From Planctomycetota bacterium (GTDB lineage Bacteria; Planctomycetota; MHYJ01; WSZJ01), in contig WSZJ01000014.1 of NCBI GenBank assembly GCA_009773755.1, positions 1 through 64,000 on the forward strand: a stretch of 64,000 nucleotides of DNA. Direction: 5' to 3'. A program made the translations under genes and the position numbers. Numbering within the stretch: position 1 is the stretch's first letter; every line of letters starts with the position of its first letter. Under the pieces are notes generated by a model, which ran no database searches, had not been told where the DNA came from, and saw only the letters and a list, made by a program, of their open reading frames with translations. Positions 16,435-54,981 of this stretch are shown piece after piece.

Positions 16435-17163
16435 ATGCGCTCCAACACTTCCATGGGCGGCAGTCAGTCCAGCTTCCCGCAGACCTCGGTGTGGGCTGTC
16501 CTCAAATCCGGGGAAGGCTGGGAAGCGCGTTATCAGCAGCACCTCGAGCGGCTAGCGCGGGCGTATTGGAAGCCGATCTACATCACGATTCGCCGCGGCT
16601 CGGCCCGTTCGGACGCAGACGCAAAGGACCTCACGCAGTCCTTCTGGATCCACCTCCAGGAACACGAGCTGCTGCGTCGCTTCGACAGGAACCGCGGGAA
16701 CTTCCGGACCTATCTGAAGCGCTGTCTGAAGAGCTTCCTGGGGACCGCGGCGCGGGATGCGGCGAGGCTCAAGCGGGGGGGCGACCGAGAGCCGGTTTCT
16801 CTCGACGCCGGTCTGGTGGAGGACGTCGCGGCTGCGGACGAGGGGCCGGAACGCAACTTCGACCGCGAGTGGGCTGCCGAGGTGCTTGCGCGAAGCGAGA
16901 GGGACGTGGAGGAGCGCCTCCGGCGCGAGGGGAAGGCGGTGCATGTGGAGGTGCTCCGGCTCTACACGACGAGCGAAAGCGGGGCCCGACCGACCTACCG
17001 CACCATTGCCGAACGGCTGGGAATTCGCGAATCCGACGTGGGAAACTACCTGCGTGTCGCCCGGCAGGCGCTTCGGGAGTGCGTCCTGGAAGCAATTCGC
17101 GAGTATGTAGTGGACCCGGATGCGGGTCCCGAGCTTGACGCGATTCTCGGCCCGGATCCATGA
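16435..17163 (+). CDS. ECF-type RNA polymerase sigma factor
   Basis: DAKDLTQSFWIHLQEHELLRRFDRNRGNFRTYLKRCLKSFL (sigma2-like) and RPTYRTIAERLGIRESDVGNYLRVARQALRE (sigma4 HTH). ATGA overlap with the kinase downstream. Confidence 0.8.
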   Translation: MRSNTSMGGSQSSFPQTSVWAVLKSGEGWEARYQQHLERLARAYWKPIYITIRRGSARSDADAKDLTQSFWIHLQEHELLRRFDRNRGNFRTYLKRCLKSFLGTAARDAARLKRGGDREPVSLDAGLVEDVAAADEGPERNFDREWAAEVLARSERDVEERLRREGKAVHVEVLRLYTTSESGARPTYRTIAERLGIRESDVGNYLRVARQALRECVLEAIREYVVDPDAGPELDAILGPDP

Positions 17164-20100
17164 ACGAACCGGCTTCAGGACATCTCGATGCGCTGCGAGA
17201 CCAGCTTCGCGAAGCGCGGGACGAGGGACTGGCGGAGCTCGCCGTGACGAGGGGGTATCTGGCGCGAGTCCGGTTCGAGGAGGGACTCGAGCGCCACCAG
17301 GCCGACGGACAGGGGCTTCTCGCCTGGCTCATTCAGCATGGGTGGCTGACAGCGGAGGAGGTGGCGCGCCTCCGGTCCGATCAAGGGCCGCGCGTGACGG
17401 AATGGACCCTCGGATTTCTGGCTCTCCAGATGAATCTCGTCACGCCAGAGCAGTTTTTCGAGTGCGCAGCGCTGTGGCTGAACGATTTCGACGCGGTCCA
17501 CCTCGTTCCGGATCATCCCGTGCGGGACTTCGGCGGCCTCCTGAAGGACATCGGACGGCTTGCTGAGGATGCCATGGCGACGCTGATAGCGGCTGCTGAA
17601 GCGCAGGGGTCGGCCGATCCCGTGGTCGATTCGGAAGTGAGGCGGCGGCTCCTGGACCTGCGGCCACCGGCTGAGCTGCGCGAATGGCTGATCCGCCTGC
17701 CCGTGAGGAAACATGCGAGGCCAGCGTTCGAGCCGCGTCCACGGGAAGAGAGATACGAGCTGGGAAATGAGATCGCTCGGGGCGGGCTCGGCCGCGTCGT
17801 GGAGGCTCTCGACCGGCACCTCAGGCGCGAGGTCGCGATCAAGCTCGTGCGGGAGGACACCCATCCGGACGTCGCGGAACGATTCGTGCGGGAGGCCGGG
17901 CTCGCCGCCAGGCTCGACCACCCCCACATCATCCCGATCTACGATTTCGACGTCATGCCCGGCCCCTCGGGCGCGAAGAGGCTCTTTCTCTGCATGAAAC
18001 GCGTCAGAGGCCAGAATCTGGCCGAAGTGATCCGCAGGGTCTCCGAGGGGGACACTTCCCAGGGCGGACGATTTTCCCGAGGGCGCCTGCTGAGTATTTT
18101 CCAGGACATCTGCCTCGGGATTGCGTACGCGCATTCAAAGGGCGTGATCCACCGCGACCTGAAACCGTCGAATGTGATGATCGGGGACTACGGCGAGACG
18201 CTGATCGTCGACTGGGGGCTGGCGAGGCCGATCGGCGAGGCCGGAGGCGACGGAACGATCCCGGAATCGGCTTCGCCGGAGATGCAGCCGCCGCTGTCGC
18301 CCCCGGGCCCCGTCGCTGAAGCGCCGCCCGACGAGACGGCGCTGACGCTCGAAGGCGTAGTCATGGGCACGCCAGCGTACATGCCGCCCGAACAGGCTAC
18401 CGGCCACCGCGATGACGTGGACCGCAGGAGCGACATCTTCGCGCTGGGAGGGATTCTCTTCGCGATCCTGACCTATCGTCCTCCATTCGAGGGAGAGAGT
18501 CGCGAGGAAGTGCTGGAGCGCGTGAAATCAGGGGTGCCCGACGCTCCGTCGGCCAGGATTCGCTCCTTCTACATCGCTGGCGCGGGCCTCCGCCCGGTGC
18601 CGCCCGATCCGGTCCCGCCCGAGTTGGATGCGATCTGCATGAAGGCGCTGGCGTTCCGCCGGGAGGACCGCTACCAGTCAGCGACCGATCTCCACGACGA
18701 CGTCCAGTTGTTCCTCGAAGGCGTGAAGGAGCGGGAGCGGGAGCACAGGCTGGCCGATGATGCTGTTGTCATGGCCAGTGACGCCATCGCGCGATGGAAG
18801 AGGCTGAGGGGGGAGGCGGTGGCGGCGGGCGAGAACGTCAAGCAGCAGGAGGAGGGCGTCCGGACTAAAGAGGAGAAGGCGGTATTGTGGATGGAAGAGG
18901 ACCGGGCTCGTGGCCTGGAACTCGAGGCGGTGGACGCCTTTGCGGATGCGAACGCGGCCTTGACAATTGCGTTGGGGCACGAGAAGCGGCACGCGAAGGC
19001 GCGGTTCCTTAAGGCGGAGCTTTTCTGGGACAAGTTTCTCGAAGCCGACAAGTCCGGCGACGAAAAGGAAATGCTCCTCTCCCGGCGGATTGTCGAGTCG
19101 TACAACGACGGGCCGTTCGACGCGCTCCTCAAGGGAGACGGGACCCTGACGGTGCGGACGCGGTCGTACGCCTGCCGCTGTCTTCTCGACGGTCGCACGG
19201 TCCTTCCCCACGAGCTGCGTCACTTTGGCTGCCATCCGTTCTCCGGACGCGCGCTCGGAAAGGACGAACGCGCCGATGGCCTGCCCGGTGTGGAGCCCAG
19301 GGAGCCTGTGCAGGTCAAAGTGCACTCAGCGTCGTGCAGTGCCGAGCCTGTCGTCGGGGCGGACGTCTGGCTCTGGCGCTATGCGGAGATCGGCCGGCTT
19401 CTCGTACCCGTCACTCAATCCGGACCGGAGTCGCCTGCGCGTGCCGGCGAGCCGCCCATCCGTGCCGTTTTCTCCGCCGACTCGCCCTTCTACCCGCACG
19501 GTCCTGGAACGTATCTCGGCAGGACGCCGATCGAGAACCGCGCATTGCCGATGGGCTCCTACCTGATCATCCTCTCGCGCGCCGGATTCGACGTAATCCG
19601 CTGTCCGGTGACCATCTCCCGCTGCGGTCACTGGGTCCAGAGTGTGACCCTGTTCCAGCCGGGCGAGACGTCCGCCGACCTCATTCCGGTCCCCGCGGGC
19701 AGGTACGGCTATCAGGGCGAACCCGGCGCTCCCATGGTCGATGCCGCGAAGTCGGAGGAACTGGACGACTTCTTCATCTCCCGCCATCCCGTGACTTGCC
19801 GCGAATACGCCGCCTTCCTCAACGACCTCTCGAAGACCAGGCCTTATGAAGCGGCGCAGCGCGTGCCGCGCGAATCCCAGACGAGCGGCTATTACTGGCC
19901 CGGGCCGCCGTACGCAGTTCCCACCAAGAACTGGCTCGCGCTGGCTGCGCCGGAACTGAAAGAGAAGGCGCGCCAGCTGCAGGACTCCACTGTCGACTGG
20001 GATGACTCCTGGCCGGTCTTCGGCGTGTCCTGGGAAGACGCAATGGCCTATTGCGCCTGGAGACGGGACACGGGAGGCGGACTGGTCACTCTTCCGCACG

Positions 20101-20465
20101 AGGTCGAGTGGGAAAAGGCCGCGCGTGGCACGGACCGCCGCTGGTTCCCCTTCGGGAAGCACTTCGACGAGGACTGGTGCAACGCCCGTCGAGCCCGCCT
20201 CGGCGCCGCGCGCCCGTCGACCGTGCAGGAATTCCCGCACGATGAATCGCCCTACGGCGTCCGCGGCCTGGCGGGAAACAGCCGGGACCACTGTCTGAAT
20301 GAGATTCCGGGGTTTTCCGGCTGGCGCCTGGGGCGCGGCGGCATCTGGACCGGCACCGGATTCAATGCACGCGCAACTCGCCGGTCCGCCAACCCCTCTC
20401 GCACCGTCATCAACAGCTGCGGATTCCGGTTGGCCCGGCCGTGTCGCTTGTCCCCGACACCCTGA
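17160..20465 (+). CDS. Ser/Thr protein kinase with FGE/SUMF1-like C-terminus (paralog K1)
   Basis: HRDLKPSNVM, LIVDWGLARP, MPPEQATGH. C-terminus HPVTCREYAAFLNDL...SPYGVRGLAGNSRDHCLN...RGGIWTG. Confidence 0.92.
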   Translation: MNEPASGHLDALRDQLREARDEGLAELAVTRGYLARVRFEEGLERHQADGQGLLAWLIQHGWLTAEEVARLRSDQGPRVTEWTLGFLALQMNLVTPEQFFECAALWLNDFDAVHLVPDHPVRDFGGLLKDIGRLAEDAMATLIAAAEAQGSADPVVDSEVRRRLLDLRPPAELREWLIRLPVRKHARPAFEPRPREERYELGNEIARGGLGRVVEALDRHLRREVAIKLVREDTHPDVAERFVREAGLAARLDHPHIIPIYDFDVMPGPSGAKRLFLCMKRVRGQNLAEVIRRVSEGDTSQGGRFSRGRLLSIFQDICLGIAYAHSKGVIHRDLKPSNVMIGDYGETLIVDWGLARPIGEAGGDGTIPESASPEMQPPLSPPGPVAEAPPDETALTLEGVVMGTPAYMPPEQATGHRDDVDRRSDIFALGGILFAILTYRPPFEGESREEVLERVKSGVPDAPSARIRSFYIAGAGLRPVPPDPVPPELDAICMKALAFRREDRYQSATDLHDDVQLFLEGVKEREREHRLADDAVVMASDAIARWKRLRGEAVAAGENVKQQEEGVRTKEEKAVLWMEEDRARGLELEAVDAFADANAALTIALGHEKRHAKARFLKAELFWDKFLEADKSGDEKEMLLSRRIVESYNDGPFDALLKGDGTLTVRTRSYACRCLLDGRTVLPHELRHFGCHPFSGRALGKDERADGLPGVEPREPVQVKVHSASCSAEPVVGADVWLWRYAEIGRLLVPVTQSGPESPARAGEPPIRAVFSADSPFYPHGPGTYLGRTPIENRALPMGSYLIILSRAGFDVIRCPVTISRCGHWVQSVTLFQPGETSADLIPVPAGRYGYQGEPGAPMVDAAKSEELDDFFISRHPVTCREYAAFLNDLSKTRPYEAAQRVPRESQTSGYYWPGPPYAVPTKNWLALAAPELKEKARQLQDSTVDWDDSWPVFGVSWEDAMAYCAWRRDTGGGLVTLPHEVEWEKAARGTDRRWFPFGKHFDEDWCNARRARLGAARPSTVQEFPHDESPYGVRGLAGNSRDHCLNEIPGFSGWRLGRGGIWTGTGFNARATRRSANPSRTVINSCGFRLARPCRLSPTP

Positions 20466-20673: not shown

Positions 20674-21630
20674 ATGAAGCGATTCCCTCCCACCCTCGCC
20701 TTCCTGACATTCCTTGCCTCCCTGGCGAGCGCCGACATGCTCCTTCTCAAGAACAGGAGCGTCGTCGAAGGGCGCTTCGTCGAGAAGTCCGCCGACTCCG
20801 TGACACTTGAGAACTTCGACGGAAACGTCACGGTGAAATTCGCGGACATTCAGAAGTGGACGAAGGAGAAGGGTGCGTTCGAGGTGTACGGCGAGAAGCT
20901 GGCGAAGCTGAAAGGGAGCGACGCGGACGCGACCTACGCGCTCTCAAAATGGTGCCGCGACCGGCGGCTCTGGGCGCAGGCAAAGCCGTTGCTCGAGAAA
21001 ACGCTGGAGCTGAAACCGGGGCAGAAGGCGGCGACGAAGGACCTGGAACTCGTGAAGAAGGGTCTCGACGAGGCGTGGAAAGCGTCGCTCGTCCCGCTGA
21101 CGGTGCTCATCGGCATCAAGCAGGACCTGACGAAGGACGAGATCGAGAAGCTCTCGGAAGAAGTGAAAGCGGCAGGCGAGAAGTGCGCCGCCGCGACGCA
21201 CGGAGCGATGTACTTTGCGGAAATCGTGCTTTCGGATCAGAAGGCAGAGGGTCACCTCGTCTACGATTCCGATTTCACAGGGACGCCGAACGGCCGTTGG
21301 TGCATCCCGATGGGAACGAGGAATTGGTTCGCGCGCGTCATCTTCCACGAGCTCGGCCACGCCCTTCTCGACCTCGACGACGAATACAAGGGCGCCGGGT
21401 ACGGCGCCAATACCGGCGAGTCCTGACCCGATTGCATCATGGCCCTCCGGGACAAGGGCTTCTGCCACGCGAAAAATCACAACGGCAACGGCAACGGCGC
21501 CGGGTGCCGGGAGCGACTGGTCTGGAAGTGGCCGCAATTGAAGAAGGCATTTGCGGCGCTGGACGCGGCTGCGCCGGTGGAACGGCAGCCGCCCGAAACG
21601 AAGGTGACGATCAAAAACACGGGCAGGTGA
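20674..21630 (+). CDS. candidate selenoprotein: secreted HELGH zinc metallopeptidase with in-frame TGA (21424-21426)
   Basis: Signal peptide; VIFHELGHALLDLDDEYKGAGYGANTGES-[TGA]-PDCIMALRDKGFCHAKNHNGNGNGAGCRERLVWKW. The two ORFs flanking the TGA are in the same frame. Confidence 0.7.
21441..21460 (+). promoter_or_regulatory. candidate bacterial SECIS hairpin
   Basis: GGCCCT-CCGGGACA-AGGGCT: 6-bp stem (one G-U), 8-nt loop containing G, stem starting 14 nt after the TGA. Confidence 0.5.
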
Positions 21631-38322: not shown

Positions 38323-41273
38323 GTGCGGGATATCGACGCGCCGGTATCGACTCAGGAGCCGCCCGTGAGCGATCGAAAGGACCTCGAATTCGGGCTCACC
38401 GCGCTTCAGCTCAAACTCCTCTCCCGCGAGCAGCTTCTGGTCGCCGTGTCCGAGTGGTTCAACGAGATGAACATCGCGGGGCTCGTTCCAGGTCACGCCG
38501 CGCGGGACCTCGAGCGCGTCCTGCTCGACCTGCGGCTTCTCAAACCGTCGGAAGCGAACTCGGTTCACGAGTCGCTCCGCTCGCGCGCTTCCGGGCAGGA
38601 GCCTGTGCTTGATCCGGCGACGCGGGAAGCGCTCTTCCAGCTCTCTCCTCCCGCCGAGGTGCGCGTGTGGCTTCGGGGAATGTCGCGGCCTGCGCCGGCG
38701 CCCTCGTTCAAGCCGCGGCCGCGCGACGAGCGATACGAGTTCCGGGAGGAGATTGCGCGGGGCGGGCTGGGGCGGGTTCTGGATGCGCTGGACCGGGACC
38801 TCGGGCGGGACGTGGCGGTCAAGCTGACGCTCGACGGGCTGCGCGCGGACGACGTGGAGCGATTCGTGCGGGAAGCGCGGCTGACGGCGCAGCTCGACCA
38901 TCCGAACATCGTGCCCGTCTACGATTTCGGCGTGAGGCCGCGAGCCGGCGGCGGGGAAGAGTACTACTTGTGCATGAAGCGCATACGGGGGATGGATCTG
39001 GAATTGCTGATCACGGGTTTGAGGCTGGGGGACGCGGCGCTCGCGGAAAAGTTCACACGGGGAAGGCTGCTGGCGGTCTTCCAGGACGTGTGCCTGGGAA
39101 TTGCGTATGCGCATTCGAAAGGAGTGATTCACCGGGACCTCAAGCCGCCGAACGTGATGGTCGGGGAATTCGGCGAAACTCTGATCGTGGACTGGGGGCT
39201 GGCGAAGGAGATGGGGAAGCCGGAGCCGCACTTCGGCGCGGCGGGTCCCCGGGTGGAGCGCACGACGGCGCCCGCCCCCGACGCCACTCAGCTCACCCTG
39301 GCCGGAGACGTGCTGGGGACGCCGACCTTCATGGCGCCCGAACAGTTCGAGGGGCGGCTCGAGGACATCGACGCGCGCAGCGACGTCTACGCGCTCGGTT
39401 CCATCCTCTACTCCATTGTCGCGCTCCGCCCTGCCTTCCTCGCCGACGAGGTGGGCGCCATCGGCGACGTTCTCCGCTCCGGCCGCCTCCGACCTCCGTC
39501 GGCCGTGTCGAGAGCCGCGGAGCCGGTCCCGCCGGAACTCGATGCCGTCTGCCTGCGCGCCATGGCGTACCGCCGCGAAGACCGCTTCCAGTCCGCCCTC
39601 GAGCTCCACGACGAAATCCAGCGCTTTCTCGAAGGATCCCGCGAGCTCGAACGGCGCCGTCGAGCCGCCCGCGAGCGATCCGCCGAGGGGCTCCGCCAGC
39701 TGGCGCGCTATCGCGAGCTCGACGGCGAAATCCAGGCGCGCCAGAACGATGTCGAGCGGCTGCAGAAGGCGCTCGGAAATTACGGGCCTGCGGACAGGAA
39801 GCGGCCCATCTGGGACGCGCAGGAGAGCGTGAAGGTCCTGCGCGAAGACCGGATCGACGCGTACACGAAAGCGGGGGCCGAGTTCGGGCAGGCGCTGGTC
39901 GCGGATCCGGCGTGCGCGGAGGCGCTGGCGGGGATGTGCGAGCTGCAATTGGAGAAATACCTGGAAGCGGAGGCGGTTCGCGACGACGACGAGATGCAGC
40001 TCCGCTGGAACATCCTGGCGCACCACGACCGGCAGGGGACGTTTGCGGCCCGGCTCGACGCGCCGGGCCGTCTGTTGCTTCGCACCTGGACCCGCCCGTG
40101 CGATTGCCTGCGGCCGGTAAAAGAGCCGGGATGGCGGGTGGAATTTGGCGAGGCGTGGACCGTGCCATGGCGGGATGGGCGTGCACGTCCAGGGGAAGCG
40201 CTTCGCGACGAAGACCTGCCTGTGCCCAAGGTTCTGGTGAGCCCTCGCGGAACCTACTGGGGGCACGGCGCGAAATTCCGGGCGTCGAGGTGTCGATCGC
40301 AAAGTACGAGACGAAAGACCGTCGGCTTGTCCCGGGCGCCGCGCGGGTGCTCGGCACGACGCCGCTCGCGGACGTCGAGCTGCCCCAGGGCTCCTGGCTC
40401 TGCACGCTCAAGCCGCCCGCGCCCTTCATTCCCGCCCGCTTCCCGGTCCGGATCGACCGGGCCGGCCGGGCGTCGCACGACATCACGCTCTATCGGGAAG
40501 GCGAAGTGCCTGCAGGATTCGCAGTCGTTCCCGGGGGCGAATTTCCCTACGGCGGAATCGAACCCGGCCGCCGTCAGGGAATGACGCGCGTCACCGAGGA
40601 CTGCTTCTTCGCGCGCTTCCCGGTCACCTGCCGAGAGTACCTCGAGTTCCTCAACGACCTGTGCGCGCAGGGCCGCATCGACGAGGCGCGCCGCCGGGCT
40701 CCACGGGACAGCGGACACACGCTCTGGATCGAAGAGGCCTCCGCAGGGCGAGCCGCGCGCTTCCGCCTCCCGCGTCCCGACGAGCGCCCCGCGCAGGCGT
40801 GGGAAGCGGAGTGGCCGGTCATGTCGGTGGACTGGCACGACGGCCTCGCCTACTGCGGCTGGCGCTCGACGCGCGACGGCATCGTCTTCACGCTGCCCCA
40901 CGACGAGGAGTTCGAAAAAGCCGGCCGCGGCCTCGACCGCCGCGACTTCCCTTACGGTCCCGAGTTCGACGCCGCGTACAGCCACACCAGCGGCTCCCGT
41001 TCCAGCGGCGCCGCGCCACTCCCCGTGGGTTCCTCCCCCGAGGACGAATCCCCCTACGGCGTCCGCGACCTCTCCGGCGGCGCCTCCACCTGGACCCTCA
41101 ACGGCGCCGCCGGCGCTTCACGCTCCCTCGTCATCATCCGCGGCGGCGCATGGTCCGACAGCGGCTGGAGTTCGAGGCTGACGCAGCGGCGTGGAAGCGA
41201 GCCGGAGACCGTGCTGTCGCACATCGGACTGCGGCTCGTCGCGCGGCCGGTGTGGCATCCTTTCCCGCACTGA
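38323..41273 (+). CDS. Ser/Thr protein kinase with FGE/SUMF1-like C-terminus (paralog K2), frameshifted at a G5 run near 40258-40263
   Basis: HRDLKPPNVM, LIVDWGLAKE. The first frame ends ...RGTYWGHG and another frame continues ARREIPGVEVSIAKYETKDRRLV... to RGGAWSDSG. Adding one G to TGGGGGC restores YWGARREIPGVEV. Confidence 0.85.
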
Positions 41274-41362
41274 CCTTTGAGGCGATCCGCCTGCGGGGAG
41301 AGATCGAGGCGGCCCACAGCGTGCTACGCTTGAATCAACTCCGTCTCATCAGGAACCGCCGC

Positions 41363-44359
41363 ATGGCCCGGGAATCCGACATCCTCTTCGCCCTCCTTGC
41401 GCTCCGCGCCGGGGTTGCGCCGCGCGACAGGATTCTGGAGTGCGCGATGGTCCTGGCCGAGACTCCTGACGCCAGGTTGGAACAGCTGCTCGCTGAACAG
41501 GGATTGCTCTCCGAAGAACGGCTCGGGGCGTTGCAAGCCGAAGTGCGCGCGGAGATCGGGCGGCACGGCGGCGACGCCGCGAAAGCCGTAACGAGCGCTT
41601 CGCAGGACCCCGAGTTGCGGCGGGTGCTGGAAGCAGGATTCCTGAGCGAGCATCGCGTCACCGCGCTTCCGTTGGTCCCGGATCCCGCGGTCATCGTCGC
41701 CCGGCCCAGCGGCGCACGCTACGAACTCGGCCGTGAACTGGGCCACGGAGGCATCGGCCGCGTCGTGAGCGCCCAGGACCGGGACCTCGCGCGCGACGTC
41801 GCGCTGAAAATCGTCCCCGTCGATGATGCTCCCGACACCGCCGCCCGCTTCGTGCGCGAAGCCCGGCTCTCCGCGCGGCTCCAGCACCCGAATATCGTCC
41901 CCGTCCACGACTTCGGCTCCCTCACCGGACCGGGCGGAGAGCAGCAGCTGTTCATCTGCATGAAGCGAATCGAAGGACGCGACCTGATGTCGCTTCTCAG
42001 GGAGATTGTCGAGGGAGACGGGTCGCTTGCCGCCGTGTTTACGCGGGCGCGGCTGCTGCGCATATTCCAGGACGTCTGCCTGGCGGTGGCTTATGCCCAC
42101 TCGAAAGGCGTCATCCACCGGGACTTGAAGCCCTCCAACGTCATGCTCGGCGAATACGGGGAGGTGCTGGTCGTTGACTGGGGCCTCGCGAAGGAGCGAG
42201 GGCAGGACGCTCCGCCCGCCCGGGCGCCGCTTCCGGAAAGCACGACGGTCCACACGCCGGTCGGCGACGTGATGGGCACGCCCTGGTACATGCCCCCTGA
42301 ACAGGCGCTCGGTCACTACGATGAGATCGACGAGCGCAGCGACATCTTCAGCCTCGGTGCGATCCTCTACGAGATCCTCACGTTTCAGCCGCCGTTTCCT
42401 GGAGCATCCGCCGAAGAAGCTCTTCGCCGCGCCCAGGCAGGGCGCATTCTGATTCCGTCGCACCTGCTCGCGATGGAGGCCTGGCCTCCTGTCGCGATGG
42501 CGCAGGGCATTTCACCGGAGCTCGACTCGATCTGCATGAAGGCGCTCGCGCCGAAACGCGAGGAACGCTACGCGCGGGCGATGGAGCTGCACGACGAAAT
42601 TCAGTTGTTCCTTGAAGGCGTGAAGGAGCGGGAGCGAAACCACCACCAGGCGGAAGAGGCAGTCGCCAAGGCCAGGAGCGCCGCGGCGCGGCAGAAGCAG
42701 CTTCAGCAGGCGGCGTCGCAGGCGGAGGCGGAGGCGAAGCGGCAGGAGAAGGAAGCGGAGCCGCTGGAAGCGAAACCGTCGCTCTGGGCGGCGCAGGACC
42801 GGGTCGATGCGCTGAGGCGGGCGGCTGTCGAGGCGTTTTCGGAAGCGAACGCGGCGATCGGGTTGGCGCTTGGATTTGAAAGGGGGAATGTGGAGGCGCG
42901 GCAGCTCTGGGCGGAGCTGGCGTGGGCGAAATTTCTGAAAGCGGAGGAGGACGGAAAGGAAGAGGAAATGCTCCTCAACCGCCGCCTGGTGGAGCGGTAC
43001 AACGACGGCCCCTTCGATGCCCTGCTCGCCGGCGAGGGCGCGCTGACGGTGCGAACGCGGGCGTATGAGTGCCGGTGTCTGCTCGCAGGGCGCGACGCCC
43101 GGCCCGAGGAGCTGGGGCGCCTGGGCTACCACCTGTTTTCAGGACGATCCCTGGAAGGTCACCCGGGCGCGGAGGGAGTGCCGGATTTGGAGCCTGCGAC
43201 GCCGGTCCGTCTCAAGGCGCACGGGTCGGGGTGCGCGGCCGCGCCTGTGCTCGGCGCTCACGTGTGGCTCTGGCGCTACGAGGAGATCGGCCGGTTGCTC
43301 ATGCCTGCGACGCCGGAAGGAGCGACGCGGGGACCGGTCGCGCCGCCCCTGGATACGCTGTTTCCGGCGGACTCGCCTTTTCGGCCACAGGGCCCGGGAG
43401 AATACCTCGGGCTGACGCCTCTCCGGGCACGGGCCCTCCCCATGGGCTCCTACCTTCTCGTGCTGCACCGGGACGGCTTCGAACCGATCCGTTGTCCCGT
43501 CACGATCCCGCGCTGCGGGACCTGGGAACAGGACGTGACTCTCTTCCGCCCGGGCGAAATCCCGGCGGGCTTTCTCCCGATTCCCTCCTCATCTGTCTGC
43601 TACCAGGGCGACTCAGGTAATCCGCATTCCGAACCCGGCAAAACAGTCGACCTCGACGACTATTTCATGGCGCGCCATCCAGTGACCTGCCGCGAATACT
43701 GCGAGTTCCTGAACGATCTGGCGAAAACACGCCCCGATGAGGCCGCGAGACGGGCGCCGCGTGAAGCGGATTCGAGCGGGTTCTACTGGCCGGGACCTCC
43801 CTGGGCCGTGCCGACCGCGGCCTGGCTCGCCGGCGCGCCCGCCGAGCTCAAGGCGAAGGCGAAGCGGCTCTCGTCCAGTCCCGTGGATTGGGAAGAGGAC
43901 TGGCCCGTGTTCAGCGTTTCGTGGGAGGACGGCATGGCGTACGCGGCGTGGAAGCGAGCGGGCGACGGAAGCCCGGCGACGCTGCCGCATGAAATGGAGT
44001 GGGAAAAGGCGGCGCGCGGGACGGATCGCAGGCCCTACCCGTTTGGCCGGCACCTCGACGAGCGCTGGTGCAACAACATCCGCTCGCATCCGGGAGAAAG
44101 CCGGCCGTCGGTCGTGACCGGGTTTCCCTTCGACGAATCGCCCTACGGCGTTCGCGGCTTCGCGGGGAACAGCCGCGACGCCTGCCTGAATTCCGCCGCC
44201 CCCGATCATCCCGGCTGGAGGATCTTCCGCGGCGGGTACTGGCCCATGACCGGGATCGTTTCCCGCGCCTCGCACCGCGGAGGGCTCACGACCCGCAGCG
44301 TGCTTTTCATTTACGGCTTTCGCCTGGCACAACCCGCTCGGCTGGCGGGGCCGGGTTGA
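41363..44359 (+). CDS. Ser/Thr protein kinase with FGE/SUMF1-like C-terminus (paralog K3)
   Basis: MARESDILFALLALRAGV start chosen; HRDLKPSNVML, LVVDWGLAKE; HPVTCREYCEFLNDL, GVRGFAGNSRDACLN, RGGYWPMTG. Confidence 0.9.
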   Translation: MARESDILFALLALRAGVAPRDRILECAMVLAETPDARLEQLLAEQGLLSEERLGALQAEVRAEIGRHGGDAAKAVTSASQDPELRRVLEAGFLSEHRVTALPLVPDPAVIVARPSGARYELGRELGHGGIGRVVSAQDRDLARDVALKIVPVDDAPDTAARFVREARLSARLQHPNIVPVHDFGSLTGPGGEQQLFICMKRIEGRDLMSLLREIVEGDGSLAAVFTRARLLRIFQDVCLAVAYAHSKGVIHRDLKPSNVMLGEYGEVLVVDWGLAKERGQDAPPARAPLPESTTVHTPVGDVMGTPWYMPPEQALGHYDEIDERSDIFSLGAILYEILTFQPPFPGASAEEALRRAQAGRILIPSHLLAMEAWPPVAMAQGISPELDSICMKALAPKREERYARAMELHDEIQLFLEGVKERERNHHQAEEAVAKARSAAARQKQLQQAASQAEAEAKRQEKEAEPLEAKPSLWAAQDRVDALRRAAVEAFSEANAAIGLALGFERGNVEARQLWAELAWAKFLKAEEDGKEEEMLLNRRLVERYNDGPFDALLAGEGALTVRTRAYECRCLLAGRDARPEELGRLGYHLFSGRSLEGHPGAEGVPDLEPATPVRLKAHGSGCAAAPVLGAHVWLWRYEEIGRLLMPATPEGATRGPVAPPLDTLFPADSPFRPQGPGEYLGLTPLRARALPMGSYLLVLHRDGFEPIRCPVTIPRCGTWEQDVTLFRPGEIPAGFLPIPSSSVCYQGDSGNPHSEPGKTVDLDDYFMARHPVTCREYCEFLNDLAKTRPDEAARRAPREADSSGFYWPGPPWAVPTAAWLAGAPAELKAKAKRLSSSPVDWEEDWPVFSVSWEDGMAYAAWKRAGDGSPATLPHEMEWEKAARGTDRRPYPFGRHLDERWCNNIRSHPGESRPSVVTGFPFDESPYGVRGFAGNSRDACLNSAAPDHPGWRIFRGGYWPMTGIVSRASHRGGLTTRSVLFIYGFRLAQPARLAGPG

Positions 44360-48122: not shown

Positions 48123-48265
48123 CCTCCTCGGGAATCAGCATGCCAACGGGCGCGCTCCACGTATCTTAGGAAAAATCGTCTCCGAGCAGCCGAAGTCCTC
48201 CCGTTGTTCGATCCCCTCCCATGGGCTATCATCAGGATTCGATTTCAACAGCGAGGAGACCTCTC

Positions 48266-49108
48266 ATGAAATTGTGCGCTCTTCCCGTAATCGCCCTTCT
48301 GGCCGCCCTGCAGGCCCACGCCGGCGGCGTCACCTGGGAGAAGTCGTTCGAGGAAGCCAAAGTCAAGGCCGGGCTCGAAGGCCGGCTGATGTACCTCGAC
48401 TTCTTCACCGACTGGTGAGGCTATTGCAAGAAAATGGATGCGGATACGTATCCACGGGCGGACGTCGTTGAAGCGCTGAAGCCGTACCTCTGCGTGCACA
48501 TCAATGCGGAGAAGGAAGGGAAGGACGTCGCCAGCAAGTACGGCGTGAACAGTTTCCCGCGGCTGATGATCCTGGACCCGATGGGGAACAAGCTGATGGA
48601 GATCAAGGGGAAGCCGCAGGACGAGGGGTTCGGCGAGCGGCTGCCTTACGACATTCATAACGCGATGGCGGTGGCGGCGAAGGCCGGGGATTTCAAGGTC
48701 TCCGCGGCGAGCATGGTGTATCTGAGACGGTGGTTCGAAGGCACCGAAGCGCGCAAGGCCGCCGAGGACTGGTACAAGCAGCTCGAGGCGAACGCCGACT
48801 TCAAGGCGGCGTACGACGAGGCGCAGAAGAAGCTGGAAGACGGGCTGGCGAAGGCGAAGGAAGAAGCGGTCGGCCAGCGTGAGGCGCTCGAGAAGGCGCG
48901 CATCGTCGCCGAGGAGAAGGAGCGCAAGGACCTCATGGCGACGGCCGCCGAGCATTCGAAGAAAAGCCGGCGCAAGGAAGCGATCGAGTGCTGGCAGAAG
49001 GTCAATGACCGCTGGCCGGACTCGGAAGAAGCGAAGACGGCGCGCGGGAAGCTGAAATTTTTCGGCGTCAAGGTCGAGGAGCCGAAGCAGGATCCAGCGC
49101 CGAAATAA
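48266..49108 (+). CDS. candidate selenoprotein: secreted thioredoxin-fold protein with in-frame TGA (48416-48418) at the catalytic Cys position
   Basis: MKLCALPVIALLAALQAHAGGVTWEKSFEEAKVKAGLEGRLMYLDFFTDW-[TGA]-GYCKKMDADTYPRADVVEALKPYLCVHINAEKEGKDVASKYGVNSFPRLMILDPMG. The frame is continuous across the TGA. Confidence 0.88.
48435..48454 (+). promoter_or_regulatory. candidate bacterial SECIS hairpin
   Basis: TGGATG-CGGATACG-TATCCA: 6-bp stem (one G-U), 8-nt loop with G, stem starting 16 nt after the TGA. Confidence 0.55.
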
Positions 49109-49157: not shown

Positions 49158-52100
49158 ATGACCGGGCGGAACGAGCCTCAGGAACTCCTGTACGGGCTGC
49201 TCGCGCTTCAGATGGGGAAGCTCCGGAAGCAGGATCTGGTCGGGGCGGTCGAGATCTGGCTGAACGATCTGGACCTGGAGCGCCTGGGGTCGTCCGCCGC
49301 CCATCGAGACCTCAGGTCGGTCCTGAGGGAACAGAAACTGGTGGCTTCAGCAGCGGAAGAAGACGTCGAGGCCGCGGTCCAGTGCATGCCCGAAGCGGGG
49401 CCGGAGAGGGGTCCGGCGATCGAGGACGACCTGCGCCGATGCCTGCTCGACCTCGAACCGCCCCAAGCCTTGCGCGCCTGGCTGCTGTCTCTCGGCGCGC
49501 GCGCTTCCCAGACGCCCTGGAGTCCTGTTCCGCGCGAGGACCGCTATGTTCTGAGCGCGGAAATCGGGAGGGGAGGGCTCGGAAGCGTGTTCGACGCGGA
49601 GGACCGGGACCTGGGGCGCGAAGTGGCGATCAAGGTCCTCCGCGACGGGGGACAGGCCGATGCGGAGCGCTTCGTCCGAGAGGCGAAGCTGACAGCCCGG
49701 CTAGACCACCCGAACGTCGTACCTGTCCATGATTTCGGCCTGCTGTCCGCCTCGGGCGGAAACCCGAAGCTTTTCCTCTGCATGAAGCGCATCCGGGGCC
49801 GGACGCTGAGAGACCTGGTGGACGGCCTTTGCGCCGGCGCCGCGGAGGCGAGGCGCACGTTGTCGCGAGCGCGGCTGCTGGCGATCTTCCAGGACGTCTG
49901 CCTCGGAGTCGCCTACGCGCACTCCCGCGGGATCATCCACCGCGACCTGAAACCGGCCAACGTGATGGTCGGCGAATTCGGCGAGACTCTCGTGGTCGAC
50001 TGGGGGCTCGCGAAAATCGCCGGCGCGCCGGAGGAAGTCACCGCGGAACATCCGGTGAGGCAGGTGCCGGACCAGGATGCAACGCAGTTGACTCTCGCGG
50101 GAAGCGTCCTGGGCACACCGGCCTACATGGCTCCGGAGCAGGCTGAGGGGAGGCTGGAAGACGTCGACGCGCGCAGCGACATCTACGCCCTCGGCGCGAT
50201 CCTGTACGTCCTCCTTACGTGGCAGCTTCCATGGCCGGCGGGCCCGAATCCTTCCACGCGACGCGGGCTTCCCATGCTGCCCTCCGAACGTGTCGCCGCG
50301 GAGGGCCCGGAAGGCAACCCGCCAGTGTCCCCCGACCTCGACGCGATCTGCCTCCGCGCGATGGCGGTCCGCAGGGAAGACCGCTTCCAGTCCGCTATGG
50401 AGTTGCACCACGAAATCCAGCTCTTCCTGGAAGGCGTGAAAGATCGAGAACGGAACCATGGCCTGGCGGAGGGGGCGGTGGCGAAGGCGAAGGCGGCGAT
50501 GGAGCGGCAGAAGCGGCTCGTGGACGATGCGAAGCTTGCGGCCGAGGAGGCGAAGAAGGTGCTGAAGGAGTTGAAGCCGACGGACGACAAGGCGGCGCTC
50601 TGGGCGGCGCAAGACAGGGCGAAGGAGCTGGAATTCGGGGCGATCGACGCGTTCGGCGAGGCGAATGCGGAGTTGACGGTCGCGCTGGGGCACGAGAAGG
50701 AGCACCTGGATGCGAGGCGGCTGCGGGCTGAGCTGCACTGGAAACGGTATCTCGAGGCGGAGGCGCGCGACGACGAGAAGGAGATGCGGGTCGATCGCGC
50801 CATTGTGGAGAGGTACAACGACGGGCCTTTCGACGCGTTGTTGAACGGCGACGGAACGCTGACGGTGCGGACGCGGGCATATCCGTGCCTGTGTCTGGCC
50901 GATGGACGGACGGTGAAACCGGAGGAACTGGCGTGGCAGGGGTATCACCCGTTTTCGGGAAGGGCGCTGGACGGTCACACCCGGGCTGAAGGGCTGCCTG
51001 CGCTGGAGCCAGGGGAACCAGTCAGACTCAAAGTGCATGCGGCGACCTGCGGGGCGGTCGCGCTCGACGGCGCGGAGGTGTGGTTGTTTCGATATCAGGA
51101 GGCCGGCCGGCGGCTGATGCCAGGAACGCCCGACTTTCGCGCGACGAATGTCGCCGTGAGGTGCATCGCCGTGCCGCCAGCCGTCGTCGATGCGCTCTTC
51201 GAGCCGTCATCCCCGTATCGTCCGCAGGGACCCGGACTCTACCTCGGCCGCACGCCGATCGACCGGCAAGCTCTTCCGATGGGCTCGTATCTCCTGTTGG
51301 TTTCCCACGAGGGGCGCGCGCCGCAGCGCGTGCCGGTGTCGATTCCCCGTTGCGGCGCATGCGAGCAGGAGGTGACGCTTTTTCGGCCCGAGGAAATCCC
51401 GCCGGGGTTCATCCCGATTCCCGCGGGAGCGTTCGGGTACCAGGGCGACCCACTGAATCCGTACGCCTTTCCCGCCGAGACGATAACCGTGGACGACATC
51501 TTCTTCGCCCGTTACCCCGTGACCTGCCGCGAGTATGCGGAATTCCTGAATGATCTCGCGAAGACGCGGCCCGAGGAAGCGGCGCGCCGGGTCCCCCGCG
51601 GGTCGCCGGAGAGCGATTTCTACTGGACTGGTCCGCCTGGCCCTGAGCGAGCGGAAGGACCGTACGCGGTTCCAACGGAGGCCTGGTTCGCGTGGGCGCC
51701 TGCCATGGTCAAGTCGAAGGCGCGACGGCTCACGGGCTGTCCCGTGGATTGGGAGGAAGACTGGCCTGTCTTCGGCGTCTCGTGGGAGGACGGGATGGCG
51801 TACTGCGCCTGGAAGCGCGGACGCGAAGCACGGCTGACGACGCTTCCGCATGAGCTGGAATGGGAGAAGTCGGCGCGCGGCACTGATTGGAGATATTTCG
51901 TCTGGGGACGCCACTGGGACGATCGTTGGGCGAACGCGAACCGCTCGGCGCCCGGCGGGCTGCGCCCGTCCCGCGTCGACGAGTTCTCACCGGACGAATC
52001 GCCGTACGGCGTTCGCGGGCTGGCCGGGAACAGTCGCGACTTTTGCCTCAACGACCCCGGACCGGACTATTTCGGCTGGCGGATTTCGCGCGGCGGCCGA

Positions 52101-52220
52101 TGGGCGGATTCGGGCATCAACGCGCGCGCGACGAATCGCACGGGCTACACAACGCGAATCGTCAACGATAGTCTCGGGTTCCGTACGGCATCCGTCATCC
52201 GACTCTCAAGGACACCTTAA
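49158..52220 (+). CDS. Ser/Thr protein kinase with FGE/SUMF1-like C-terminus (paralog K4)
   Basis: HRDLKPANVM, LVVDWGLAKI, MAPEQAEG; YPVTCREYAEFLNDL, GVRGLAGNSRDFCLND, RGGRWADSG. Confidence 0.92.
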   Translation: MTGRNEPQELLYGLLALQMGKLRKQDLVGAVEIWLNDLDLERLGSSAAHRDLRSVLREQKLVASAAEEDVEAAVQCMPEAGPERGPAIEDDLRRCLLDLEPPQALRAWLLSLGARASQTPWSPVPREDRYVLSAEIGRGGLGSVFDAEDRDLGREVAIKVLRDGGQADAERFVREAKLTARLDHPNVVPVHDFGLLSASGGNPKLFLCMKRIRGRTLRDLVDGLCAGAAEARRTLSRARLLAIFQDVCLGVAYAHSRGIIHRDLKPANVMVGEFGETLVVDWGLAKIAGAPEEVTAEHPVRQVPDQDATQLTLAGSVLGTPAYMAPEQAEGRLEDVDARSDIYALGAILYVLLTWQLPWPAGPNPSTRRGLPMLPSERVAAEGPEGNPPVSPDLDAICLRAMAVRREDRFQSAMELHHEIQLFLEGVKDRERNHGLAEGAVAKAKAAMERQKRLVDDAKLAAEEAKKVLKELKPTDDKAALWAAQDRAKELEFGAIDAFGEANAELTVALGHEKEHLDARRLRAELHWKRYLEAEARDDEKEMRVDRAIVERYNDGPFDALLNGDGTLTVRTRAYPCLCLADGRTVKPEELAWQGYHPFSGRALDGHTRAEGLPALEPGEPVRLKVHAATCGAVALDGAEVWLFRYQEAGRRLMPGTPDFRATNVAVRCIAVPPAVVDALFEPSSPYRPQGPGLYLGRTPIDRQALPMGSYLLLVSHEGRAPQRVPVSIPRCGACEQEVTLFRPEEIPPGFIPIPAGAFGYQGDPLNPYAFPAETITVDDIFFARYPVTCREYAEFLNDLAKTRPEEAARRVPRGSPESDFYWTGPPGPERAEGPYAVPTEAWFAWAPAMVKSKARRLTGCPVDWEEDWPVFGVSWEDGMAYCAWKRGREARLTTLPHELEWEKSARGTDWRYFVWGRHWDDRWANANRSAPGGLRPSRVDEFSPDESPYGVRGLAGNSRDFCLNDPGPDYFGWRISRGGRWADSGINARATNRTGYTTRIVNDSLGFRTASVIRLSRTP

Positions 52221-52266
52221 CCCGCTCTTGTCTGTCCCGCCGTCCCTCACCACCGGGAGCTGTCGA

Positions 52267-54981
52267 GTGACTCGCGAAGCCGATCTGGAATTCGGGCTTG
52301 CCGTCCTGCGCCTGAAGTTCGTCACGCCGGAGCAGCTCGAACGCGTGATGGCGGCGCGGCTGGGCCCGGCGCTTCGTGACCAGTTGCTGGCGTCGGGGGC
52401 GCTGACCGAGGACCAGGCTCACGCCGCCGACGAAGCGGCGCGCGGCTCCGGCCGGTACCGCCTCGGGCCCGAACTCGGCCACGGCGCGCTGGGGCGGGTC
52501 GTGCAGGCGTTCGACTCGTCCCTCAAGCGCGACGTTGCGGTGAAACTGGTGCTCGAAAACCTTCCGGCGGAACTTCGCGAACGCTTCGTCCGCGAAGCCG
52601 AGCTTTCCGGCCGGCTCGAGCATCCGAACATCGTGCCGGTCTATGATTTCGGGGAGCTGGAGGGAAAGAAACTATTCCTCTGCATGAAGCGCGTCCACGG
52701 ACGCGACATGGCGAAGCTGCTGAAGGACCTGGTGAAGGGAGACGCGGCCACGTGCGAAATGTACTCGCGGGCGCGGCTGCTCGCGCTGTTCCAGGACATC
52801 TGTCTCGGCGTTGCGTTCGCGCACTCGAAGGGGATCATCCATCGCGACCTCAAGCCGTCGAACGTGATGATCGGCGATTACGGCGAAACGCTGATCGTGG
52901 ACTGGGGGCTCGCCAAGGAAAAGTCGGTAGTCGGGAGCCGGGAGTCGGGAGAAACGACGCTGACTGAGGCGAACACGACCGACGCGACGATCGTCTATGC
53001 GCGAGAGACGGGTTCGTCGTCTCGGACAATGGAGGGCGAGATCGTCGGCACGCCGGACTACATGCCGCCCGAGCAGGCCGCGGGGCGCCTTGCGGACGTG
53101 GACGAGCGCAGTGACATCTACTCGCTGGGCGCGATTCTTTTCGAGATCCTGACGTTCCAGCCGCCTATCGCGGCGAAGTCGCTGAAGGAGCTGCTCGGCA
53201 AGGTGCGCTCCGGCGTGGTGCGGAAGCCCTCGAGCGTCGTTGCCGCGATTCCGCAGGAGCTGGATGCGATCTGCCTGAAGGCGCTCGCGTTGAGGCGCGA
53301 AGACCGATACCAGACGGCGAAGGCGCTTCACGACGAAATCCAGCTCTTTCTCGAAGGAGTGAAGGAGCGCGAGCGCAGGAAGCAGGAGGCGCGCGAGCGT
53401 TTCGAGGCGGGGCGGCGGTGGTTCGCGCGGTACCGGGAGCTGCGGGGCGAGATCGAGGCCCAGGACAAGGTCGTCAAGGAGTGGGCCGGCAAGATCAAGC
53501 CGCACCAGCCGCCGGAGGAGAAACGGCCGCTGTGGGACGCCGAGGCGCGGCTGAGGGCGCTTCGCGAGGATCGCATCGAGGCGTTCGCGCAGGCGTCGGC
53601 GGAATTCGGCCAGGCGCTGACGGTGGACGCGGCGTCGGCAGAGGCCTCGGACGGAAAGTGCGAGTTGTATCTCGACCGGTTTCTGGAAGCGGAGGGGAAG
53701 CGGGATCGGGAAGAGATGCTGCTGAATCGCAAGGTGCTCGCGACGTACGACCGGGAAGGGAAGCACGCCGCGCGTCTGGACGCGCCGGGGAAGCTGACGC
53801 TTCGGACGTTTGCGTACGGCTGCGACTGCCTGCGGCCCGTGAAGCATCCGGAATGGCGCGTGGAAATCGCGGAGGCGGTCTCGGTCCCGTGGCGCGACGG
53901 CCGGCCGCGCCCGGACCTGCCCCTGACGGACACGGACTGCCCCGTCCCCGCCGTTTCGACGTTCCCTGAAGGCGTACGGTGGGGCCACACCGGGACGTGC
54001 GTCCGGCGCGAAGTCACGGGAGTCGAGGTTTCCATCGCGAATTACGAAGAGCGCGACAAGCGCCTCGTGCTGGGGCCAGAGCGCGTTCTCGGCCGGACGC
54101 CGCTTCCGGACGTCGTCGTGCCGCGCGGTTCGTGGCTGTGCGTCCTCCGGCACCCGGACTTCGCCCCTGTGCGCCTGCCGGTCCGGATGGACCGCGGCGG
54201 CGCGTGGACTCAGGAGGTCAACCTTTACCGGGCCGACGAAATCCCGGAGGGGTTCTGTTTCGTCCCCGGCGGACCGTTCATCTTCAGCGGCACCTGGGCG
54301 GGCGGCCACGAAGCGGAGACGAAGGTGACGGAGGACCTCTTCGTCGCGCGCTTCGCGACGACCTGCGCCGGGTACCTGGAGTTCCTGAACGACCTCTGCG
54401 CGCAAGGGCAGACGCCGGAAGCCCGCAAACGCCAGCCGCGCGAAGGAGACCGGAAGTGGTGGATCGAGGAGGGCGGGCGGTTCCGCCTGCCGACGCCCGC
54501 GGAAGACTCGAGGATGGAGTGGGACCTTCGCTGGCCTGTGCTCTCCGTGAACTGGTTCGACGCCGTGGCGTACTGCGCGTGGAAGTCGAAGCGTGACGGC
54601 CGGGTCCATGCGCTGCTGCACGAGGAGGAATACGAGAAGGCCGTGAGAGGCGTGGACGGCCGTGTCTTCTCCTACGGAAACGAGTACGACGGGAGCTACT
54701 CGCACACGAATGCTTCGATTCCCGGGAAAGTCACCCCGATGCCGGTGGATTCGTTCCCGATCGATGAATCGCCCTACGGTCTTCGCGGCCTCTCGGGAGG
54801 GATCATGACGTGGGGCTTCAGCGCGCCGCCGGTTCCCTTGCACGCCTGGCGCAGCCTCAGAGGCGGGACGTGGAACTATCCCTTCCCCTACGCGCGCACA
54901 GGCGAACGGCGCGGCGATCTGCCCACCAACGTGACCTCGCTCCACGGGTTGCGCGTCGTTGTGCGGCCGAGGAGTTCGTAA
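52267..54981 (+). CDS. Ser/Thr protein kinase with FGE/SUMF1-like C-terminus (paralog K5), GTG start
   Basis: VTREADLEFGLAVLRLKFVTPEQLERVM start; HRDLKPSNVM, LIVDWGLAKE, MPPEQAAG; GLRGLSGGIMTWGF, RGGTWNYPF. Confidence 0.9.
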   Translation: MTREADLEFGLAVLRLKFVTPEQLERVMAARLGPALRDQLLASGALTEDQAHAADEAARGSGRYRLGPELGHGALGRVVQAFDSSLKRDVAVKLVLENLPAELRERFVREAELSGRLEHPNIVPVYDFGELEGKKLFLCMKRVHGRDMAKLLKDLVKGDAATCEMYSRARLLALFQDICLGVAFAHSKGIIHRDLKPSNVMIGDYGETLIVDWGLAKEKSVVGSRESGETTLTEANTTDATIVYARETGSSSRTMEGEIVGTPDYMPPEQAAGRLADVDERSDIYSLGAILFEILTFQPPIAAKSLKELLGKVRSGVVRKPSSVVAAIPQELDAICLKALALRREDRYQTAKALHDEIQLFLEGVKERERRKQEARERFEAGRRWFARYRELRGEIEAQDKVVKEWAGKIKPHQPPEEKRPLWDAEARLRALREDRIEAFAQASAEFGQALTVDAASAEASDGKCELYLDRFLEAEGKRDREEMLLNRKVLATYDREGKHAARLDAPGKLTLRTFAYGCDCLRPVKHPEWRVEIAEAVSVPWRDGRPRPDLPLTDTDCPVPAVSTFPEGVRWGHTGTCVRREVTGVEVSIANYEERDKRLVLGPERVLGRTPLPDVVVPRGSWLCVLRHPDFAPVRLPVRMDRGGAWTQEVNLYRADEIPEGFCFVPGGPFIFSGTWAGGHEAETKVTEDLFVARFATTCAGYLEFLNDLCAQGQTPEARKRQPREGDRKWWIEEGGRFRLPTPAEDSRMEWDLRWPVLSVNWFDAVAYCAWKSKRDGRVHALLHEEEYEKAVRGVDGRVFSYGNEYDGSYSHTNASIPGKVTPMPVDSFPIDESPYGLRGLSGGIMTWGFSAPPVPLHAWRSLRGGTWNYPFPYARTGERRGDLPTNVTSLHGLRVVVRPRSS

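Follow-up and report, generated by a model that had tools for sequence, protein, structure and literature searches.

A thioredoxin-like gene with an in-frame TGA codon

We analysed the first 64,000 nucleotides of contig WSZJ01000014.1 (hereafter the window) from GCA_009773755.1, an uncultured Planctomycetota MAG (88% complete, 1.6% contaminated). Two genes of the window contain an in-frame TGA codon at which selenocysteine (Sec, U) is predicted, one coding for a thioredoxin-like protein and the other for a metallopeptidase (Table 1). Both are flanked by genes for large serine/threonine kinases with formylglycine-generating-enzyme-like C-termini (17160-20465, 40661-44359, 49158-52220 and 51850-54981, according to their translations). 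Two other frames joined across a TGA, 46374(+) and 49349(-), were rejected because real genes lie antisense to them.

Table 1. Features of the two candidate selenoprotein genes (positions in the window)
Feature	Position	Strand	Details
Metallopeptidase gene, M64/M6-like, signal peptide-bearing (candidate selenoprotein)	20674..21630	+	TGA 21424-21426; terminal TGA 21628-21630
Shine-Dalgarno-like GAGGAG	48253..48258	+	7 nt before ATG 48266; read from sequence
Exported thioredoxin-like selenoprotein gene (predicted)	48266..49108	+	280 codons; Sec at codon 51; stop TAA 49106-49108
Signal-peptide-like N-terminal segment	48266..48325	+	K2, hydrophobic core, A-H-A before G; by inspection; low pLDDT at residues 1-15
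Sec-UGA codon, first position of UxxC	48416..48418	+	TGA in 5/5 same-genus orthologues; Cys in WCxxC homologues
Resolving Cys (Cys54) of UxxC	48425..48427	+	Invariant in alignment A2
Bacterial SECIS hairpin (predicted)	48435..48454	+	8-bp stem 48435-48442/48447-48454; loop GAUA 48443-48446
C-terminal all-helical domain	48638..49060	+	Residues about 125-265; long helix 177-232; AlphaFold model

Apart from this TGA, the frame of the thioredoxin-like gene is open from its ATG to its TAA, with no further in-frame stop. The residues around the codon read FFTDW-U-GYCKKMDADTYP, with the active-site motif W-U-G-Y-C-K; thus, as the original prediction had it, the TGA lies in frame at the first catalytic Cys of a thioredoxin fold. 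With Cys in place of U, the protein scored above the Pfam cut-offs with Thioredoxin (PF00085; 37.6 bits) and Thioredoxin_7 (PF13899; 36.8 bits, or 31 with X for U, gathering cut-off 27). With PF13098 (cut-off 27), the outcome depended on the residue put for U, at 32.7 bits with Cys but 25.4 with X. The AlphaFold model (mean pLDDT 91) shows a thioredoxin domain followed by an all-helical domain. The best domain-level matches by both profile and fold were the C-terminal (gamma) domain of DsbD and DsbH. Thioredoxins were also retrieved by both routes, YbbN by Foldseek and PDI domains by profile. From the DsbD-gamma, DsbH and thioredoxin matches, together with the signal-peptide-like N-terminus, we infer an envelope disulfide reductase, which is the role that we favour.

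A selenoprotein with a different role is possible, if clearly less likely, and competes with the functional assignment only. It might serve in envelope oxidation or isomerisation, in line with the PDI matches, or act as a holdase like Escherichia coli YbbN (CnoX), the top full-length Foldseek match, in which a thioredoxin domain likewise precedes a helical repeat domain. However, YbbN is cytosolic and devoid of CxxC catalysis, and its full-length superposition on the model is poor (rmsd 24.7), so that only the domains match. Given this value, the presence of UxxC and the signal-like N-terminus seen by inspection, we did not class the protein among the YbbN/CnoX chaperedoxins. Moreover, the nearest periplasmic domain matches, DsbD-gamma and DsbH, are reductive.

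Conservation and decoding of the TGA codon

Homologues with Cys at the aligned position, which the original prediction had proposed to look for, were found: L030, L027 and L034 are of the WCxxC type. Column C51 of alignment A2 is invariant, and the TGA is therefore aligned with the catalytic Cys of these homologues. Orthologues at 70-79% identity are present in four genomes of the same genus (G003, G004, G005 and G006, the G005 copy being split over two contigs), in a collection that holds only seven genomes of the order. All four have TGA at this codon, and neither TAA nor TAG was seen there. Their surroundings showed no shared neighbourhood except for kinase genes in some. Between orthologues, dN is 0.15-0.28 against a dS of 0.54-0.82 upstream of the TGA, and about 0.12-0.21 against about 0.7 downstream. 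Purifying selection thus acts on both sides of the codon.

These data bear on the ways in which the codon could be a stop. That it ends a 50-residue leader, with a second polypeptide restarting at an ATG (48434) situated 15 nt past the TGA and opening a 224-residue ORF, is very improbable. Such a restart would break the thioredoxin fold at its active site, with loss of the signal peptide and of the resolving Cys, and would leave unexplained both why TGA is kept and never replaced by TAA or TAG and why homologues have Cys at the aligned codon. Still less weight attaches to a true stop arisen by nonsense mutation or assembly error in a pseudogene: TGA is indeed the commonest stop in the window, but the same TGA occupies one catalytic codon in five species, with purifying selection on either side, no other in-frame stop and never a TAA or TAG. 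Sequencing error (TGC or TGT misread as TGA) is excluded in practice because those five species were assembled separately. The argument that a chance nonsense mutation is unlikely, made at the outset from the window alone, is borne out by the four orthologues out of four, by TGA at the same active-site position in more than 20 paralogues of the order and by the Pfam scores above cut-offs.

The original prediction made Sec dependent on selA, selB, selC and selD, and all four are present in the source genome. We detected a tRNA-Sec (selC; 71.9 bits, anticodon TCA), SelA (544 bits), SelB with its C-terminal domain (344 bits) and SelD (370 bits), the gene of the latter having an in-frame TGA of its own. 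The tRNA-Sec gene has a Thioredoxin_7 gene with Sec as a near neighbour, approximately 300 bp away (L176; G000:C145:60-151 and 437-688). SelA was found in 241 of the 392 sampled genomes of the phylum, and Sec use as such is therefore common in Planctomycetota. Many frames of the genome contain TGA, as they would if the codon were reassigned genome-wide or read as Cys or Trp without Sec machinery, but this explanation is next to negligible since TGA terminates 16 of the 30 long ORFs of the window (a count that takes in a few spurious ORFs or ORFs closed by a Sec codon) and also several selenoprotein genes, the genome has a tRNA-Sec whose anticodon is TCA, and the in-frame TGAs recur at catalytic U/C positions. 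It is almost certain that the TGA at 48416 specifies selenocysteine as an active-site residue of a thioredoxin-like enzyme predicted to be exported.

The SECIS hairpin and the proposed mechanism

The hairpin downstream of the TGA had been described as a 6-bp stem with an 8-nt loop; its outer coordinates and its 16-nt distance from the TGA proved exact, while the structure is better drawn as 8 bp closed by a GAUA tetraloop. Published rules for bacterial SECIS elements ask for a loop of 3-9 nt with a G in its first two positions, a stem of 4-16 bp, a spacing of 16-37 nt and a minimum free energy of at most -7.5 (PMC13188914). The window hairpin satisfies them, with 8 bp, the loop GAUA, 24 nt between UGA and loop, and -13.4 kcal/mol. 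An Rfam scan of the window gave nothing at gathering thresholds.

Covariation was of little help. Since most of the SECIS stems have the same sequence, RNAalifold found no pairs and no consensus structure on them, and the three pairs with double changes in count_structure_pairs did not stand out clearly from shuffles, which attain the observed scores. Single compensatory cases are seen in L032 (GGGTACG/CGTACCC) and L020 (GGAAACG/CGTTTCC), the latter stem being kept through Asp-to-Glu and Tyr-to-Phe changes. Formal covariation being weak, we compared the sites with synonymous recodings drawn with local codon usage, which separates RNA from protein constraint, and used three kinds of control. 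The window hairpin is more stable than its recodings (z -2.38, p 0.01), and so are 49 Sec sites on average (mean z -1.63), these being orthologues and paralogues and hence not fully independent. The controls stayed near zero: -0.05 at 90 nt downstream, +0.04 upstream and +0.13 for 11 Cys homologues. Among the orthologues, synonymous identity reaches 0.93 over the ten codons that start two after the TGA, as against 0.66 overall, the second rank among 270 windows of that size. Thus, the hairpin is conserved beyond coding need, although a clear one is absent in some paralogues (L026, L031, L036 and L029). Together with the Sec machinery and the conserved TGA, this recoding-supported hairpin bears out the original prediction of a UxxC selenoprotein.

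According to the reading that we regard as very likely, the hairpin 16 nt after the UGA would recruit SelB with Sec-tRNA(Sec), so that the UGA is read as Sec rather than as a stop. Once the protein has been exported, U51 of the U51-G-Y-C54 motif would attack a disulfide, or a selenenylsulfide, of an envelope substrate, and Cys54 would resolve the intermediate, in the manner of DsbD-gamma or DsbH, whose thioredoxin domains are periplasmic and reducing. The role of the helical C-terminal domain is probably to position either the enzyme or a client. The frame, the machinery, the TGA conservation, the two-sided selection, the RNA-level constraint and the fold were established by computation; Sec insertion itself, export, the direction of the reaction and its substrates are inferred.

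Other candidate selenoproteins and comparison with known systems

The second candidate gene of the window would code for a protein with the motif HELGH...DEY...U-PDC-IM. Its U takes the place of the first Cys in a CxxC that is conserved and that occurs in distant homologues precisely at the U-PDC site. The TGA is kept in an orthologue at 79% identity (G004) and in a paralogue at 72% (C281), with dN much lower than dS both before and after it. Its hairpin has an 8-nt loop without an initial G and was not significant by synonymous recoding (z -0.4 to -1.0, p 0.19-0.37). Peptidase_M64 (PF09471) matched only around HExxH, at 17.9 bits for a cut-off of 26, and we therefore filed the protein as M64/M6-like only. 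Our literature search found no selenoprotein of such a metallopeptidase kind, and the text of a 2026 review of prokaryotic selenoproteins mentions neither peptidases nor proteases (PMC13188914). A metallopeptidase with Sec would thus add to the selenoproteins a class of protein that this catalogue lacks.

In the source MAG, we counted at least 32 candidate selenoprotein genes with 34 Sec codons: 29 of the thioredoxin fold, in which individual reading placed the TGA at the active-site codon, SelD and two metallopeptidase copies. This census covers Thioredoxin_7, AhpC-TSA, SelD and families met on the way, in searches and the stretches around matches; C262:38801, C30, C14 and C292 are weaker calls without hairpin support. 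TGA is present in 20 of the 27 Thioredoxin_7 matches and in 6 of 25 for AhpC-TSA. The pattern W-U-x-x-C-K occurs at only three places in the genome, far fewer than the loci of the family searches, and a motif search is therefore a poor census. Three matches of SECIS model R1 were left out of the count: C128:6899 and C172:1233 (G000) have no convincing genes, and C221:184 has TGC at that codon, not TGA. Published maximum selenoprotein counts are 57 and 63. Two further arrangements were observed, namely an AhpC-TSA-like frame whose in-frame TGA falls in a deiodinase-like motif, GSYT-U-PPF (L194; G000:C79:18804-19226), and a UxxC thioredoxin domain fused to a heavy-metal-associated (CopZ-like) domain (L160; G000:C36).

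Two C242 genes harbour a double-Sec motif, FR-U-xx-U-xx-C, with two TGAs; it is also present in G004 (2), G001 (2), G120 and G192. The double-Sec Trx7/PDZ loci (L180:1345-1365 and 2803-2823, L231, L232, L233, L234, L235 and L236) thus span five genomes of the class, and a C-xx-U-xx-C form was observed in L178. In a small tree, the Cys genes L030 and L034 are nested in Sec clades with local support of 0.95 and 0.83, and their hairpins are gone. This tree, built from a short alignment and only suggestive, suggests that both are apparent Sec-to-Cys reversions, an event described in the 2026 review as rare and for the most part confined to FdhA and SelD (PMC13188914).

Taken as a whole, the order probably possesses one of the larger bacterial selenoproteomes, which grew for the most part as exported proteins of the thioredoxin fold were duplicated and retained both UxxC and a SECIS. 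The Trx7/PDZ proteins with the double-Sec motif UxxUxxC, found across the class, would belong to it, as would the secreted UxxC metallopeptidase as a new family. Genes of this kind would come out of standard gene callers truncated or in pieces, so that much of the envelope redox system of the lineage would be missed. The paralogue set offers many Sec/Cys pairs of one fold in one genus, including the two apparent reversions; with such pairs in close relatives, the question of why Sec is used rather than Cys becomes testable by residue swaps. Of these results, the expansion across the lineage and the peptidase merit further study.

The thioredoxin-like gene itself is a further example of already known Sec thioredoxin-like proteins, and its wider setting is more notable. 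Like the catalogued Sec thioredoxins and thiol:disulfide interchange proteins (UxxC; PF00085, PF13098; PMC13188914), its product has the thioredoxin fold with U first in UxxC and a bSECIS directly downstream. It differs from them in being PF13899-type and, as predicted, exported, in its extra helical C-terminal domain and in belonging to a paralogue expansion of Planctomycetota, a phylum without mention in that review. Compared with DsbD-gamma and DsbH, it has Sec for Cys and the helical domain and lacks the DsbD membrane domain. It shares a Thioredoxin_7 fold with Sec with the NF041199 Trx7/PDZ (seleno)protein, but it lacks a PDZ domain and gave no match to the model (cut-off 300 bits), against which a C242 paralogue scored 378 bits; the catalogued NF041199 motif is CxxU with one Sec, in contrast with UxxUxxC in the paralogues found here. 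In the same phylum, the planctomycete symbionts P1 and P2 of Porphyra have selenoproteins and the full Sec machinery, P1 with six putative antioxidant selenoproteins (PMC4807772) against the 32 candidates of the source MAG.
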